Positions 6,811 through 12,748 of a stretch of DNA of 64,000 nt are shown here, in pieces. The notes beneath the pieces were generated by a model. It saw only the letters and a program-made list of their open reading frames with translations. It had not been told where the DNA came from and searched no databases. Source of the DNA: Gammaproteobacteria bacterium (lineage in GTDB: Bacteria > Pseudomonadota > Gammaproteobacteria > Xanthomonadales > SZUA-36); assembly GCA_021772935.1 (NCBI GenBank), contig JAJFLA010000008.1, forward strand, positions 124,001-188,000, given 5' to 3'. A program made the position numbers and the translations under genes. Numbering within the stretch: position 1 is the stretch's first letter; every line of letters starts with the position of its first letter.

Positions 6811-7548
6811 TCAATTCAGGCTTGGAAATTCGCTTCGGTTCAATGCCTCATAGCGGCTTAAATCGCTCATGCTATCAACTTCAAACCAACGATCTTTAAT
6901 CGCAACCACCTTTATGAGTGCACTTTGTTGAAGCATTAGCCTCAGTAACCCAGTCATATCAAGCTGTCTTTGTGCTGGAATCGATAATGCGGACATAAAA
7001 CCAGTTATTTGATGCCAACCCATGGGTGTGATTTTCAATAAACCCATATATTGACCTTCTACACTTTCTACTGAGTGAGCAGGTGCCCCTATTTCCAGTA
7101 AGCGGCCATTGCTGGCTCGAAACGTTTCAGCATCATCCAGTGGGTGCTCAAATCTTAGTTGCCATAGTTCGAACCAGTTTGGATCGTAACTGATCACAAT
7201 ATCGCCGGTGGTTGCTCGCAGTGACCGAACCACGTCAGCGGAGTAAACGATATCGCTGTAGCTGACAACACAGGTTTCCTTTTCAAGCCACGATGATGCT
7301 GCCAACAAGGACGTCACCATGTTGCTATGTGCCCAGTCTGGATTAAAAAAATAGGTCAGATCATGCTTAAAACAATGGGACAGGAATCCGGTAACAATTG
7401 CAATGTCATCAATACCTGCTGCTCGTAATGCATGCAATTGCCATTGAATCAGAGGTGCCCCGTGCAGAATTGTGAAACATTTTGGTTGGTTTTCGGTGAG
7501 TTGGCCTAAGCGTTTGCCGCGGCCTGCGGCCAGAATGATACCTTTCAT
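6811..7548 (-). CDS. Nucleotidyltransferase, probable CTP:phosphoglutamine cytidylyltransferase (Cj1416-like)
   Basis: This 245-residue protein has the N-terminal nucleotidyltransferase signature ILAAGRGKRLGQLT followed by QPKCF. The motif WAHSNMVTSLL (about residues 84-94) is typical of LicC-like cytidylyltransferases, which form CDP-activated small molecules. The acidic metal site is probably in VVSYSDIVYS. On its own it would be annotated as a choline-phosphate or sugar-phosphate nucleotidyltransferase. Beside Cj1417- and Cj1418-like genes, in the same order as in Campylobacter jejuni, the best reading is transfer of CMP from CTP to L-glutamine phosphate. It is last in the operon, overlaps the preceding gene by ATGA, and its 3' end runs into the dusA remnant. 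Confidence 0.75.
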   Translation of the reverse strand: MKGIILAAGRGKRLGQLTENQPKCFTILHGAPLIQWQLHALRAAGIDDIAIVTGFLSHCFKHDLTYFFNPDWAHSNMVTSLLAASSWLEKETCVVSYSDIVYSADVVRSLRATTGDIVISYDPNWFELWQLRFEHPLDDAETFRASNGRLLEIGAPAHSVESVEGQYMGLLKITPMGWHQITGFMSALSIPAQRQLDMTGLLRLMLQQSALIKVVAIKDRWFEVDSMSDLSRYEALNRSEFPSLN

Positions 7549-8177
7549 ATAAAGCCCTCAAAAATAAACATCAGGGTTTCAATATGCTTGCTTCGCATTC
7601 TTTCCTCTCGTTCCGGGTGCCACATGACGCCATAAATGGGTAAAACATCATGCTGAATGGCCATAATCACATTATCCGTAGACTTCGCGATTGTTTCGAG
7701 AGGTGGTCGACTCAAGTAGCTGCCTAGTTGATGAAAAACCTGCACTGGTTTCAGGCTGCGGAAGAAATTGGTTATTTGCGCATCCCCAACGACCTTCAAT
7801 TGTTTTTTCACGCCAATATGGTCTGGTACGAGCTCAAGTGGTTGTTGAAAGTAATGTTGGATTAACTGCATGCCTCTACATACACCCAGAACAGGTTTTT
7901 GATGTTTGATAGCCCACTCAAGCATATAGCGCTCGACATCATCGCGTGCCGAACTGTCGCCACCAAATGCCACTAATGAATTTCCCCCTGTCAGCAACAA
8001 GCCATCGAAATGATCGTGTTCTAATAACGACTTTACACAGTGGAGATTATTACTGACCAGAATCGGTAGCAATTTGGCAGCCAGCATGAGGTCTACCCAA
8101 CGTTGATCCAGGGCGTCTCGCTGCTCAAGATGGCTAGAAATAAAATCAACACGCTGAGTAGTCAGTATTTTTTTCAT
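7545..8177 (-). CDS. Class I glutamine amidotransferase-like hydrolase, probable gamma-glutamyl-CDP-amidate hydrolase (Cj1417-like)
   Basis: This is a 210-residue peptidase C26/GATase1 domain with a full catalytic triad: Cys100 in GVCRGMQ, His187 and Glu189 in MWHPERE. The DGLLLTGG oxyanion loop is present near residue 60. There is no synthetase partner domain, so it acts as a free gamma-glutamyl hydrolase. In the Campylobacter pathway Cj1417 hydrolyses gamma-glutamyl-CDP-amidate to release CDP-phosphoramidate (cytidine diphosphoramidate) and glutamate, and this gene occupies the same position between the kinase and cytidylyltransferase genes. Both ends overlap neighbours by four bases. A general gamma-glutamyl-GABA hydrolase (PuuD-like) is the alternative by sequence alone. 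Confidence 0.78.
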   Translation of the reverse strand: MKKILTTQRVDFISSHLEQRDALDQRWVDLMLAAKLLPILVSNNLHCVKSLLEHDHFDGLLLTGGNSLVAFGGDSSARDDVERYMLEWAIKHQKPVLGVCRGMQLIQHYFQQPLELVPDHIGVKKQLKVVGDAQITNFFRSLKPVQVFHQLGSYLSRPPLETIAKSTDNVIMAIQHDVLPIYGVMWHPEREERMRSKHIETLMFIFEGFI

Positions 8178-10531
8178 TGTAATCGGTAAACGATTTTCTG
8201 TTCACAGTCGAGCGTTAACAATTTCGCTTTTGAACATTGATGAAATAAGGCCTCTCCAATGCCGATCACAGCAGGTAAACCTAACTCAGCGGCACGGATA
8301 GCCATATGAGAATTACAACCACCATAAAGGGTTATTAAACCCACAATGCGATGGGTGAATAACCAGTCATGCCCTGGATCAGCGTACGCCACGATTACTA
8401 TTTTCCCCGCTAATTGACCGGATAGCGCTCTTGAGTCCGGCAATAAATGCATAACCTGTGCTGTGACCCGTTTAAGTGTGATGAAATTAGGTTGTTGTGG
8501 TTGGATTTCGAAGCAATCAATATCGCTTGCCTGGGTGATAAGTGGCGGCAGAATGAGGGAGCGGGTTACGGTAAATTGATGTTGGGCTTTTGCCACTAGA
8601 TCCAATGCTGCGTCTGCGCTGGATAATCGGAGCATCTGATTGATTTTTAGAAACGCCGTGTCTTGCCTTTCAAGTTGATACTGTTGACCCAGTTTTTGAC
8701 ACAACAGAAGAATTTCACTTAAAGTCTGGCTGAATATAAATTTTGCTTTTTCCCGCCACTCAATTGCTTGCCTGATAAAACTTATGAACTCACTTGCTGT
8801 GAATTCGTACTCATGTTGCTTTAACAACACCTCTATTTGGGTTTCCTGTTTTTTGTTTAAAACAAACAAAGAACCCTTTTTACAATGAGGAATAGAATTC
8901 CAGCAAAAATAGTCATCTGGGATTTCGTCGTAACGCGGAGACAATAAATCATAGGTACCGGGGCGCATATGCCCATATTTTTGCAGAAAGTGGTTTCGGC
9001 TGCTTGTCTTGATAGCATGTATTAAGTCGCTACTCACTGTAGACAAAGACCGCATAAATAGAACTTGATTTTCAGCGGATAAAACGCCTCGGTTTACCAG
9101 AGATTGTAAAAAGTGCACGGCCAGAAAAGCGGTTCTGGCAAGACCCGCAAACGGACGGGTTCCATATTCCCGACATAGTGTGAGCAGGCTCCTGAGTTTA
9201 TTTTTTTCATCAAGCTGGCTGCTCATGATTTGCTTGTGAAGCACTGGAAGTTGCTGCACTTTTTGAATTTCGTGCAACCATAAACCCTGGTTTTTATCAA
9301 TAATTTTGCGTGTCAAATCAACCAGTGAGTTTTGCAGCAAATTACAATCATTTTTGGAAAAGCCATATTTTAATAAAGTCTGTAATGCCTGGTTCAGGCT
9401 AAAGTGATCCGAGGCCAGCACAACTTTGAACTCAACCTTATCATGCCATTGTGGATTGTTTTTTAATCGATGGAGATAAAACGTTACCAACCGAGTAGCC
9501 AGGTCATCGGGCAATTGCTTCGGAATAAAAGAGTTAAAGCTGGCCCTGATGTCAATATACGGCATACCGCAAACATCTAGCATCAAGGGAATACCACGTA
9601 CATCACGATAACCATAATCGAAACGTTGTTGTGCCCAGACTGTATCCGTCACCAACTGTTGATACAGCGAGTACGCTAGCGGTTTCGGCCGTAGCCCTAT
9701 GATTTCAGCAGGGTTCCAATCCGGCATAACACCCCACAAATTGTCTTGACCCAGGCACTGATGGCTTTTCTGACAGGCCTGCTTGAATCGTTGCTTCAAT
9801 TGTGTGAGTTCATGCTTTTGTTTAATAATGGTTACCGGCCTCTCTGCTGGTAATACCAATGGCCTCACCTGCAATAAAATAAGTTCATCATCAGAGGTGA
9901 CGATGAACTCCACATCGATAGCATCATTTTCAAACAGGTCTTCAAGTTCTTTGAGTAGGCTTAGCAGTTGTTTCTTCCAGCCACTCAAATCCGGCTCTGC
10001 TGATTTGGCGATATAGGTCAATTTCAGTCGTTGACCAAGACCTTGAGTCACAAAGTGACCAGAATTTGATTCATCATCATAATTAATGACGTAATAAGGG
10101 CTTGTTTGACCAGGTTCGTAACTGAATGCAACACCACTGAGCCGGATATGTCTAACCATGGGCTGTATCAAAACTTGATGGTCTGGATCGTCATCACCGT
10201 ATGATTTGATCAGCAATCGGACTGCCGCTTCGATCGCTTCAATTCCTTGCACATCTGCTATCGACAAAAATTGACCGGCCATTGAGTGTTGATGGTGATC
10301 TTCAGTCCGGGCGCTGCTACGCACAATGACGCTCTGGGAAAGCCATTCTGCTTGCAGTCCCAAATTCTCCCATTGCCCGTCTGCGTCAAACCAGGCTTTC
10401 AAATTGAAATGAAGTTGCGGTAACACCTTGGCAGAAAGCAATGTGCCTTGTAGCCTTTGTAGAGTTTCGGCTTTTCCTGAGAATTGAAGCTTAGCCATGA
10501 AAGGTTTTAACTTCGAAACCGAGCTACCCAT
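8174..10531 (-). CDS. PEP-synthase-like phosphotransferase, probable L-glutamine kinase (Cj1418-like)
   Basis: This 785-residue protein (774 if the ATG at 10498 is used, which starts at MAKLQFSGKAE and may be the better start) has three parts. At the N terminus is an ATP-grasp PPDK/PEP-synthase domain with VIVRSSARTED and SMAGQF, and DDELILLQVRP near residue 220. The middle, about 400 residues long, has no strong motif I recognise. At the C terminus is a swivelling phosphohistidine domain with GGCNSHMAI (His742 from the first ATG). The large PEP/pyruvate TIM barrel of true PEP synthases is absent, so PEP synthesis is unlikely. This is the layout of Campylobacter Cj1418, which phosphorylates the side-chain amide of L-glutamine, the first step of phosphoramidate synthesis. 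It overlaps the hydrolase gene by ATGA. Confidence 0.8.
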   Translation of the reverse strand: MGSSVSKLKPFMAKLQFSGKAETLQRLQGTLLSAKVLPQLHFNLKAWFDADGQWENLGLQAEWLSQSVIVRSSARTEDHHQHSMAGQFLSIADVQGIEAIEAAVRLLIKSYGDDDPDHQVLIQPMVRHIRLSGVAFSYEPGQTSPYYVINYDDESNSGHFVTQGLGQRLKLTYIAKSAEPDLSGWKKQLLSLLKELEDLFENDAIDVEFIVTSDDELILLQVRPLVLPAERPVTIIKQKHELTQLKQRFKQACQKSHQCLGQDNLWGVMPDWNPAEIIGLRPKPLAYSLYQQLVTDTVWAQQRFDYGYRDVRGIPLMLDVCGMPYIDIRASFNSFIPKQLPDDLATRLVTFYLHRLKNNPQWHDKVEFKVVLASDHFSLNQALQTLLKYGFSKNDCNLLQNSLVDLTRKIIDKNQGLWLHEIQKVQQLPVLHKQIMSSQLDEKNKLRSLLTLCREYGTRPFAGLARTAFLAVHFLQSLVNRGVLSAENQVLFMRSLSTVSSDLIHAIKTSSRNHFLQKYGHMRPGTYDLLSPRYDEIPDDYFCWNSIPHCKKGSLFVLNKKQETQIEVLLKQHEYEFTASEFISFIRQAIEWREKAKFIFSQTLSEILLLCQKLGQQYQLERQDTAFLKINQMLRLSSADAALDLVAKAQHQFTVTRSLILPPLITQASDIDCFEIQPQQPNFITLKRVTAQVMHLLPDSRALSGQLAGKIVIVAYADPGHDWLFTHRIVGLITLYGGCNSHMAIRAAELGLPAVIGIGEALFHQCSKAKLLTLDCEQKIVYRLQ

Positions 10532-11265
10532 GCTCGGCTTGTGTAAGGTGTTTCAATGGTTTTTGTCGGTTGACCATGAAGAATTTTGGCTATGTTCTGA
10601 GTGATATCAGCCAACTTTCCACCCGCCTGTCGTTGTAGGGTGGCATGTGAGTACCAGGCACCCAGTACGTCATCAATAGCTTGTGTTACCAGCATTGAGC
10701 TTTCGAAGTACTCTATCTGGGAAAACAAGCCACTTTGCTCTATAAACGCTCGCTGGTCCTGCCTTCTGAGACCATAATCATAGCTTGGGAGGTTTTCCTT
10801 AATACAGGCTTCAATACTTTGTTGTAATGGATTGTCCAGATCCCGATGATTCCAGATCGCCATAAACCAACCATTAGGTTTACAGATGCGCAGTGACTCT
10901 ATCAAGGCAGTTGTACGGTCAACGACATTAAAAGAAGAACCAAAACTGACCATGTCAAAGGTATTGCCAGGTAATAGGGAGTTCTCTGCAGTTGTATTTA
11001 CCCAAGTGATATTTTGATTATTAAGGGTACGTTGCAGACCAAGCTGATGCATGGCCAGGTTCGGTTCCAGCGCTTGTACACGTAAATGCCTCCTGGCTAA
11101 TAAAATTGTTAGATTGGCCGTACCCGCTCCCATATCACATACACGGTCATTTGATTGCAGGCCCGTGAAATCGATAATCTTGTCAATGATTGCTTGTGGA
11201 TAGTTTGGTCTTTTGTGATAGGAGCTTGCCAGTTGTGTGTAATCCCACACCATTGAGTCTTTCAT
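10507..11265 (-). CDS. Class I SAM-dependent methyltransferase of the phosphoramidate cluster
   Basis: This 252-residue protein has SAM-binding motif I (CDMGAGTANL, about residues 43-52), an acidic motif II end (ALEPN) and a post-I FDMVSFGSSFNVVD stretch, as in Methyltransf_11 proteins. The in-frame Met at residue 5 is an alternative start. It overlaps the kinase gene upstream by ATGA. In Campylobacter two methyltransferase-like genes (Cj1419, Cj1420) sit immediately upstream of Cj1418, the same relative position as here, and are thought to methylate the phosphoramidate oxygen. By analogy this enzyme would add the O-methyl group, before or after transfer. The substrate is inferred from context only. 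Confidence 0.7.
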   Translation of the reverse strand: MKDSMVWDYTQLASSYHKRPNYPQAIIDKIIDFTGLQSNDRVCDMGAGTANLTILLARRHLRVQALEPNLAMHQLGLQRTLNNQNITWVNTTAENSLLPGNTFDMVSFGSSFNVVDRTTALIESLRICKPNGWFMAIWNHRDLDNPLQQSIEACIKENLPSYDYGLRRQDQRAFIEQSGLFSQIEYFESSMLVTQAIDDVLGAWYSHATLQRQAGGKLADITQNIAKILHGQPTKTIETPYTSRAWVARFRS

Positions 11266-11765
11266 AGCGTCTTCAACAAAAGTTGTACTAATTCTTCAAC
11301 TGACTTGTCTCCGTTATTGGATAAGACAATGTCAGGCTTCTTAGGAAGCTCTGGATTCAAGTCACACCCAACTACATTTTTTATACGGTTATGTGCATAA
11401 TCGCTATACAAGTTATTTTGATCCCTTTTTTGTAATACTGAAAAAGAGACTTCAAGGTAAATCTCAATATAATTTGTGACATGTTTGCGATTCCATGCTC
11501 TCACGTCATCAAACATGGATATTGTTGCGCAGATAACATCGACGTTTTGGCTCGTGAGCAAATGACATAGCCGTGCATATTGCATCGCAAGTTGATGACG
11601 GTCATTCATTTGGTATTGCTCACCCGCGGCAAAAACTTTCCGCAAGGAACTACCATCCAGATAAACGAGACCAGGGGTATGAGGTTTAAGGGTCTCAAAA
11701 AGTAGATGTGCCAGACTGCTTTTCCCGGCGCCTGCAAGTCCGGTTATCCAGTAGAGCCGCCCCAT
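11262..11765 (-). CDS. APS-kinase-family enzyme, probable CDP-phosphoramidate 3'-kinase (Cj1415-like)
   Basis: This is a 167-residue P-loop kinase with Walker A GLAGAGKSS at residues 9-17, then LDGSSLR at 36-42 where adenylylsulfate kinases have LDGDNVR, and the CysC-like helix YARLCHLLTSQNVDVICATI. It would normally be annotated cysC. However, no sulfate assimilation gene (cysD, cysN, cysH) is nearby, and the Asp-Asn of the APS-binding loop is replaced by Ser-Ser. Campylobacter Cj1415 belongs to this family and phosphorylates the ribose 3'-OH of cytidine diphosphoramidate. The start overlaps the sulfotransferase-like stop by one base (TAATG). Confidence 0.72.
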   Translation of the reverse strand: MGRLYWITGLAGAGKSSLAHLLFETLKPHTPGLVYLDGSSLRKVFAAGEQYQMNDRHQLAMQYARLCHLLTSQNVDVICATISMFDDVRAWNRKHVTNYIEIYLEVSFSVLQKRDQNNLYSDYAHNRIKNVVGCDLNPELPKKPDIVLSNNGDKSVEELVQLLLKTL

Positions 11766-12748
11766 TAATCTAGCGAACCTCGAATGTAATGTCGACAGGA
11801 GTCCAGTTGTTGAAAAAACCTATCTTGTTTTTGTTGCTCCATGCTGTTTTGATCCTTTTCTGGATCAATAGCACTGATCAAATCGCTGATACGTTTGTCG
11901 CTGACTTGAGTTGGACTGGATTGTTCTCGCGCGTCAGCATAATTGGTGTAGCCCAACCATTGATAAATGGGATCAAAATCTGAGCCAATACAATCATGCA
12001 TCATGGGCGTATAACGTTGTTGATACTCAAAAGCCGTGCCGGTGTAGTTAAATCTTCTTTCCAATAGCCCGCGCTTTTCCAGCCGATCTTCAATGTTCTT
12101 GAGGACAGAAAAATCCGAATGGGCAAGTGCTCGATTAATCTGGTCCTCTCCAGCCTCAACGCTTATGAAATCGAGAACTTTTTTCAATGTTTGTTTGGCA
12201 TCAGCTTTATAGTCTTCAAAACGAATAACTAAATGATCATAATTGGAAAGATAATTTTTCCAGAGTTGGAGAAAAAGAAGTTGGTATTCACGGAAACTAA
12301 CAGGGTAATGAAAATAACGCGAATGTACAAAAGCCTCGAATGTTAAATTAAAAGCCGGATCATTGTGTTTGGCTCTACGCCAGTGTGAGTAAAGCGCATC
12401 TCGTGGATCACGCACAAATAATATCAATTGGCGTTTGTTCTCATAAGCTAGCGGCCATTGATGACGAAAACAAGCCGCGTGCTTAGGATTGAATTGATAT
12501 TCATGCAGGTATTGCAAAGCAGGTAGTGTTTGTTTCCATGGTAGCTGTCTGGCTGTGTATTGGTAATGGAATGGTGCCAGGCGCTGCCACTCATTTTTGG
12601 TTTCAATATCCCAGGGTTTCCAAACTGGAATATTCAACTCCAAAAAACAGTTTGCCAGCCATGCGACACCACAAGGTAGCTCCGGGGAGATAACATCAAA
12701 GGTAAAATCGGGGTAATCTATTGCACAGGCCGTTGGCATTGGTACCAT
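11765..12748 (-). CDS. Sulfotransferase-fold protein, candidate phosphoramidate transferase
   Basis: This 327-residue protein is the first gene of the operon. The 3'-phosphate-binding motif of PAPS-dependent sulfotransferases is clear (FVRDPRDALYSHW, residues 111-123, Arg113 and Ser121). The 5'-phosphosulfate loop is only partly kept: SPELPCGVAWL at 21-31 has the Pro, Gly and Trp-Leu of the usual YPKSGTTWL but not its Lys. A protein that recognises a 3'-phosphonucleotide with a changed 5' group would fit transfer of phosphoramidate from 3'-phospho-CDP-amidate made by the preceding enzymes. This is inference; ordinary sulfation is the alternative. AAAGG lies 11 bases upstream of the ATG at 12748. 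No signal peptide is seen, so it acts in the cytoplasm. Confidence 0.7.
   Translation of the reverse strand: MVPMPTACAIDYPDFTFDVISPELPCGVAWLANCFLELNIPVWKPWDIETKNEWQRLAPFHYQYTARQLPWKQTLPALQYLHEYQFNPKHAACFRHQWPLAYENKRQLILFVRDPRDALYSHWRRAKHNDPAFNLTFEAFVHSRYFHYPVSFREYQLLFLQLWKNYLSNYDHLVIRFEDYKADAKQTLKKVLDFISVEAGEDQINRALAHSDFSVLKNIEDRLEKRGLLERRFNYTGTAFEYQQRYTPMMHDCIGSDFDPIYQWLGYTNYADAREQSSPTQVSDKRISDLISAIDPEKDQNSMEQQKQDRFFQQLDSCRHYIRGSLD

Follow-up and report, generated by a model that had tools for sequence, protein, structure and literature searches.

The closest described pathway is the MeOPN pathway of Campylobacter jejuni, in which Cj1415-Cj1418 convert glutamine, ATP, and CTP to CDP-phosphoramidate 3'-phosphate (PMC11800397). 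O-methyl phosphoramidate is found on C. jejuni capsules, and one donor pathway serves two transferases, Cj1421 and Cj1422 (PMC3907429). The homologues of these transferases in C. jejuni 81-176 have 592 and 603 amino acids (PMC13317227), and a paper of June 2026 calls the enzymatic details of methyl phosphoramidate capsule decoration 'currently unclear' (PMC13276843). No NCBIfam model names the cassette proteins. In the open-licence literature, to which the search was confined, we found no paper linking sulfotransferases with this phosphoramidate pathway, so priority is uncertain.

The cytosolic sulfotransferases (SULT, Sulfotransfer_1) are the other known system to be compared. Ordinary sulfotransferases have a 5'-phosphosulfate loop of the PKSGTTWL type, which contains a Lys. 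The protein described here shares with SULTs the fold, the RDPxDxxxS motif, a candidate catalytic His, and the 3'-phosphonucleotide logic, but it lacks the loop Lys and is tied to a CDP-phosphoramidate cassette instead of PAPS genes. Its donor base and transferred group are likely to differ from those of SULTs.

The window operon and its sulfotransferase-fold protein

The window, which is the whole stretch of 64,000 nucleotides that was analysed, contains an operon of six genes with the same four donor-making enzymes as the C. jejuni pathway (PMC11800397). The order is sulfotransferase-fold protein, APS-kinase-like kinase, methyltransferase, glutamine kinase, glutamine-amidotransferase-type hydrolase, and cytidylyltransferase, and the successive overlaps between the genes are 1, 4, 25, 4, and 4 nt (Table 1). 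All four Cj1415-Cj1418-type enzymes are in one operon, with the hydrolase below its curated cut-off (98.6 bits on NF045546, cut-off 250). The name of the glutamine kinase goes back to biochemical work on C. jejuni (cited in PMC11800397), and its score is well above the family cut-off. Catalytic motifs are kept in the kinase, amidohydrolase, and cytidylyltransferase homologues. These features agree with the first-pass annotation, in which the accompanying pathway was predicted to end in 3'-phospho-CDP-phosphoramidate. The methyltransferase belongs to most cassettes across phyla and may be the enzyme that O-methylates the phosphoramidate. Among the neighbour genes adjoining the operon, no obvious polysaccharide gene was seen.

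Table 1. Positions of the operon genes and active-site motifs in the window, and of two cassettes from other loci
Feature	Position	Strand	Basis
Lys-less sulfotransferase-fold protein, proposed to transfer a phosphoramidoyl (or O-methyl-phosphoramidoyl) group	11765..12748	-	Pfam Sulfotransfer_1, fold matches, cassette linkage
SPELPCGVAWL (S21 to L31), in place of the Lys-containing 5'-phosphosulfate loop of PKSGTTWL type	12656..12688	-	Alignments
His96, aligned with the catalytic His of SULTs; candidate base	12461..12463	-	Inferred by alignment; H in 19/19
RDPRDALYS (R113-S121), 3'-phosphate-binding motif	12386..12412	-	Invariant R, D, P, D, S in 19/19
APS-kinase-family protein, Cj1415-like, predicted CDP-phosphoramidate 3'-kinase	11262..11765	-	Pfam APS_kinase; identity to cassette kinases
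SAM-dependent methyltransferase, candidate phosphoramidate O-methyltransferase	10507..11265	-	Pfam Methyltransf_11; recurrent in cassettes of many phyla
Glutamine kinase (Cj1418-like)	8174..10531	-	NCBIfam NF004508, 870.7 bits vs cut-off 501
Gamma-glutamyl-CDP-amidate hydrolase-like (Cj1417-like)	7545..8177	-	NF045546 E=4.8e-28; GVCRG and WHPE motifs
Cytidylyltransferase (Cj1416-like)	6811..7548	-	Pfam NTP_transf_3; LAAGRGKRLG motif; recurrent in cassettes
Kinase-less cassettes with CDP-type transferases	L124:6914-12003; L155:4954-9553		

The first gene of the operon has an ATG start and encodes 327 amino acids, compared with about 600 for transferases of the Cj1421/Cj1422 type, a comparison made by published description, which states no fold. 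The protein matched Pfam Sulfotransfer_1 (E=1.8e-13, 50.9 bits, cut-off 22), and its sequence matches in the PDB are SULTs (best E=1.6e-5). The top matches of its predicted fold are all sulfotransferases (Foldseek E=3.6e-7; VIA Z 14.0, rmsd 4.2, 218 aligned residues), with a model of low confidence (pLDDT 60).

When the loop YPKSGNTWL of an ordinary sulfotransferase was aligned onto ELPCGVAWL of the window protein, Lys was replaced by Pro, Ser by Cys, and Thr by Ala. The alignment of the subfamily has 19 members, in some of which identity to the window protein falls to about 25-34%. At the Lys position 18 of them have Pro and one has Ala, so that the Lys or Arg of PAPS enzymes is absent from every member. 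The Arg and Ser by which PAPS-dependent sulfotransferases bind the 3'-phosphate are present in all 19 (R113 and S121), and S21, G27, H96, D114, P115, D117, and R125 are also invariant. In the window protein the 3'-phosphate motif extends to VRDPRDALYS. The open reading frame, the Pfam match, and the alignments bear out the earlier observation that the protein keeps this motif and lacks the loop Lys. The C-terminal RKG motif, usually part of the 3'-phosphate site, is incompletely kept in the alignment, a feature absent from the first-pass annotation. Because Pro or Ala is found in all 19 members while the active-site residues are invariant, the loss of Lys is not a chance substitution. A Lys-less loop kept in an active site that is otherwise conserved would point to a change of donor more than to decay; the loss could also mean that transferase activity has been lost.

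Linkage of the Lys-less subfamily to the phosphoramidate cassette

A subfamily profile was built from four members (the window protein, its own paralogue, the protein of locus L156, and one from A. lipoferum), and 398 genomes of the order were searched with it blind. Members scoring above 130 bits were found in 16 genomes besides the window genome, and the next scores were 63 bits or less. The linkage to the cassette is strict across families. As far as the contigs reach, each of the 15 newly fetched members directly adjoins cassette genes, scored as kinase, methyltransferase, cytidylyltransferase, hydrolase, or glutamine-kinase genes. Counting those of the window, 10 genera and 5 families are represented; the loci are phylogenetically related, and these counts are not independent events. 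The members from L156 (the sixteenth genome), the window, and A. lipoferum likewise adjoin a cassette, so the co-occurrence with Cj1415/Cj1418-like genes that the first-pass annotation had proposed as a check was found at all of these loci. As controls, three of three weaker-scoring ordinary sulfotransferases were not beside a cassette.

Clustering of the neighbours at the subfamily loci gave exactly six conserved gene families and no seventh; the other, smaller clusters seem to be antisense or alternative-frame readings of these cassette genes. Five of the six families have roles in donor synthesis or methylation, and the sulfotransferase alone is left for transfer.

Searches of other samples gave the same neighbours. 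In a sample of the phylum, matches above 64 bits were confined to the window genome, G495 (the genome of L156), and G522. The latter two also carry the cassette, with the match beside it (chance about 0.001 for those two); the G522 sulfotransferase scores 88 bits and has the loop SPYAPCG. In 7.3 Gb of plasmids, the best match to the window protein was the A. lipoferum cassette protein, and viral contigs contained no relative of it. A first sample of the class (273 genomes) had no homologue at E<=1e-10 except the window genome's own paralogue; the profile search later found members.

This paralogue (L012:9592-10509, on contig 44 of the window genome), missing from the first-pass annotation, is the only member found outside a cassette. 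It stands alone, is 66% identical to the window sulfotransferase, and shares the Lys-less loop. In C. jejuni one donor pathway serves both Cj1421 and Cj1422 (PMC3907429). The same may hold for the window genome, and the paralogue perhaps serves a second acceptor specificity. In a cassette of the same genus (L196:11683-14015), the glutamine kinase is split into two overlapping ORFs, by a frameshift or an assembly error.

The idea that the subfamily genomes lack PAPS was rejected. Each of the 17 subfamily genomes encodes APS kinase together with CysD or Sat, and PAPS is probably available in every one of them, so gene content does not decide which donor is used. The CysD and ATP-sulfurylase matches lie elsewhere in these genomes and never at the subfamily locus. 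The expectation that the subfamily would occur without cysDN therefore failed at the level of the genome and held at the level of the locus; a position mainly beside sulfate-activation genes, which would have spoken against the proposed function, was seen at no fetched locus.

Candidate function and alternative explanations

The best explanation of the cassette linkage is the one given in the first-pass annotation, a sulfotransferase scaffold acting as a phosphoramidate transferase. We consider it likely, from the fold, the motifs, the operon, and the cassette linkage, that the window protein is a phosphoramidoyl transferase fed by operon-made 3'-phospho-CDP-phosphoramidate. The donor would be synthesized by glutamine kinase, cytidylyltransferase, the hydrolase releasing CDP-NH2, and the 3'-kinase, in this order. 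The sulfotransferase-fold protein would grip the presumed donor by its 3'-phosphate, as sulfotransferases do PAPS, and the phosphoramidoyl group would pass to an acceptor hydroxyl with His96 as the putative base, leaving 3'-phospho-CMP. Before or after transfer, the methyltransferase would probably form O-methyl phosphoramidate. We propose that this pathway has a 3'-phosphate because its transferase goes back to a recruited sulfotransferase scaffold.

If so, the window protein would fill the vacant final step of a known pathway and be a concrete, purifiable candidate for the transferase. The presence of an APS-kinase-family 3'-kinase in a phosphoramidate pathway would be explained, and the sulfotransferase fold would extend from sulfuryl to phosphoramidoyl transfer. 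Moreover, many cassette-adjacent proteins annotated as sulfotransferase or APS kinase may be misnamed.

The order of the steps might differ, with 3'-phospho-CDP-(O-methyl)phosphoramidate made first and only O-methyl phosphoramidate transferred. This variant of the main explanation is possible, and we give it somewhat less than an even chance. A methyltransferase is found in almost every cassette with the Lys-less subfamily, the capsules of C. jejuni carry the methylated group (PMC3907429), and a less charged group might make the Lys dispensable. However, methylation after transfer fits equally well, and several cassettes (L022, L056, L151) have a sulfotransferase-fold gene and no recognised methyltransferase.

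The lost Lys could also point to a degenerate sulfotransferase or a binding protein without catalytic activity, which would sense or channel 3'-phospho-CDP-phosphoramidate while a gene elsewhere carries out the transfer, as acceptor genes and possible other transferases lie outside the operon. We regard this as improbable, since the candidate catalytic His, the 3'-phosphate motif, and the loop Gly are invariant in 19 members, which argues for a conserved activity, and since other sulfotransferase-fold families that retain the basic residue appear to have been recruited in parallel. About as improbable is an ordinary PAPS-dependent sulfotransferase sulfating the same glycan or metabolite that bears the phosphoramidate: the Pfam family, the sulfate-activation enzymes of the genomes, and the location of some cassettes within surface-polysaccharide loci (e.g. 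L013) are in its favour, but the phosphosulfate-loop Lys is missing throughout the subfamily, every fetched member is linked to the phosphoramidate cassette and never to sulfate-activation genes, and this reading would leave no transferase among the conserved genes and the dependence on the cassette 3'-kinase unexplained.

Sulfotransferase-fold proteins and 3'-kinases in the wider cassettes

A glutamine-kinase scan gave 80 cassettes from many phyla, which together with L013 make 81 loci. All ORFs were searched, since picking by length hid the L013 sulfotransferase beneath an antisense ORF. An HMM trained solely on non-cassette sulfotransferases had matches in 34 of the 81 loci. None of these matches lay more than 3.7 kb from the glutamine kinase, although many loci reach 10 kb to either side. 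An iterated HMM found a sulfotransferase-fold gene in 53 of 81 and had no matches among reversed-sequence decoys; its E-values are inflated by self-inclusion, and the claim rests on the non-cassette HMM, Pfam, and the decoys. Pfam supported 16 of 20 iterated-HMM proteins, some of them weakly, and the four without any match are the weakest members. A second set was drawn from 14 further genomes of the phylum and comprised 15 loci, nine of which had a sulfotransferase-fold gene. The exact gene order of the window recurs in, for example, a Planctomycete, Catenovulum, a Rhodocyclaceae bacterium, and Aeromonas, where the sulfotransferase assignments in Aeromonas and one Catenovulum are weak (no Pfam match).

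No sulfotransferase-fold gene was recognised in 28 of the 81 cassettes, 22 of which have a 3'-kinase. By Pfam, the longest unlabelled neighbours in these cassettes are methyltransferases, glycosyltransferases, flagellar and housekeeping proteins, Glyphos_transf, and a few unknowns. In Pseudomonas (L068:6169-9918, and similarly L074, L075, and L092), a cassette without a recognised sulfotransferase follows the flgK and flagellin genes, which points to flagellin glycan modification through another transferase.

Loss of the Lys was rejected as a general trait of cassette sulfotransferases, as the other cassette-linked families retain Arg or Lys in the loop. Therefore, Lys loss is neither required for phosphoramidate transfer nor proof of it. 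One of these families is large and Sulfotransfer_3-like (e.g. L057:7550-9235), with a confident model (pLDDT 87, pTM 0.89) in which residues of about 150-486 match sulfotransferases (Z 14.5, rmsd 4.6, 251 aligned). Residues 20-126 of the L057 protein form an N-terminal Rossmann-like domain that matches PerB-type and Rex-type domains. Like the window protein, the Sulfotransfer_3-type proteins have the sulfotransferase fold, adjoin the cassette, and have an invariant 3'-phosphate Arg, to which two invariant His are added. Unlike it, they are larger, have the extra N-terminal domain, and retain the loop Arg in several members, and the two groups have only remote similarity.

On balance we favour the view that the sulfotransferase fold was recruited several times across many phyla for the phosphoramidoyl-transferase step, with the 3'-phosphate added by a Cj1415-type kinase as the handle and with the Lys-less subfamily as one donor-dependent lineage. 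If the fold was recruited repeatedly, it would also explain the transfer step of the Campylobacter capsule modification.

The distribution of the 3'-kinase bears on this handle. Among loci with flanks of at least 2.5 kb, a sulfotransferase-fold gene was found in 44 of 62 with the 3'-kinase vs none of four without it (P=0.010; small numbers). Across whole genomes, identity to the window kinase is 35-45% for cassette-type kinases and 27-33% for the CysC type; by this criterion G673, G696, G320, G350, G333, and G303 have neither a cassette-type kinase nor a cassette sulfotransferase. The exception is G355, which has sulfotransferase-fold genes and in which only a CysC-like kinase was found. In Acidobacteria-type loci (L018, L034, L044, and L049 among them), a single protein of about 970 amino acids carries the Cj1415-like kinase fused ahead of the glutamine kinase, at its N-terminal end.

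Two kinase-less cassettes encode CDP-type transferases (Table 1). The A. vitis cassette has a gene of the CDP-alcohol phosphatidyltransferase family, and the L155 cassette has an ORF that, by reading the sequence, is LicD-like. These cassettes suggest a second route in which CDP-phosphoramidate may be used directly. On a plasmid of Vibrio alfacsensis, a cassette (L121:3455-9355) has opposite-strand cysD and cysN genes as its neighbours. This cassette has no recognised sulfotransferase or 3'-kinase, and it contains a gene of the CDP-glycerol glycerophosphotransferase family.
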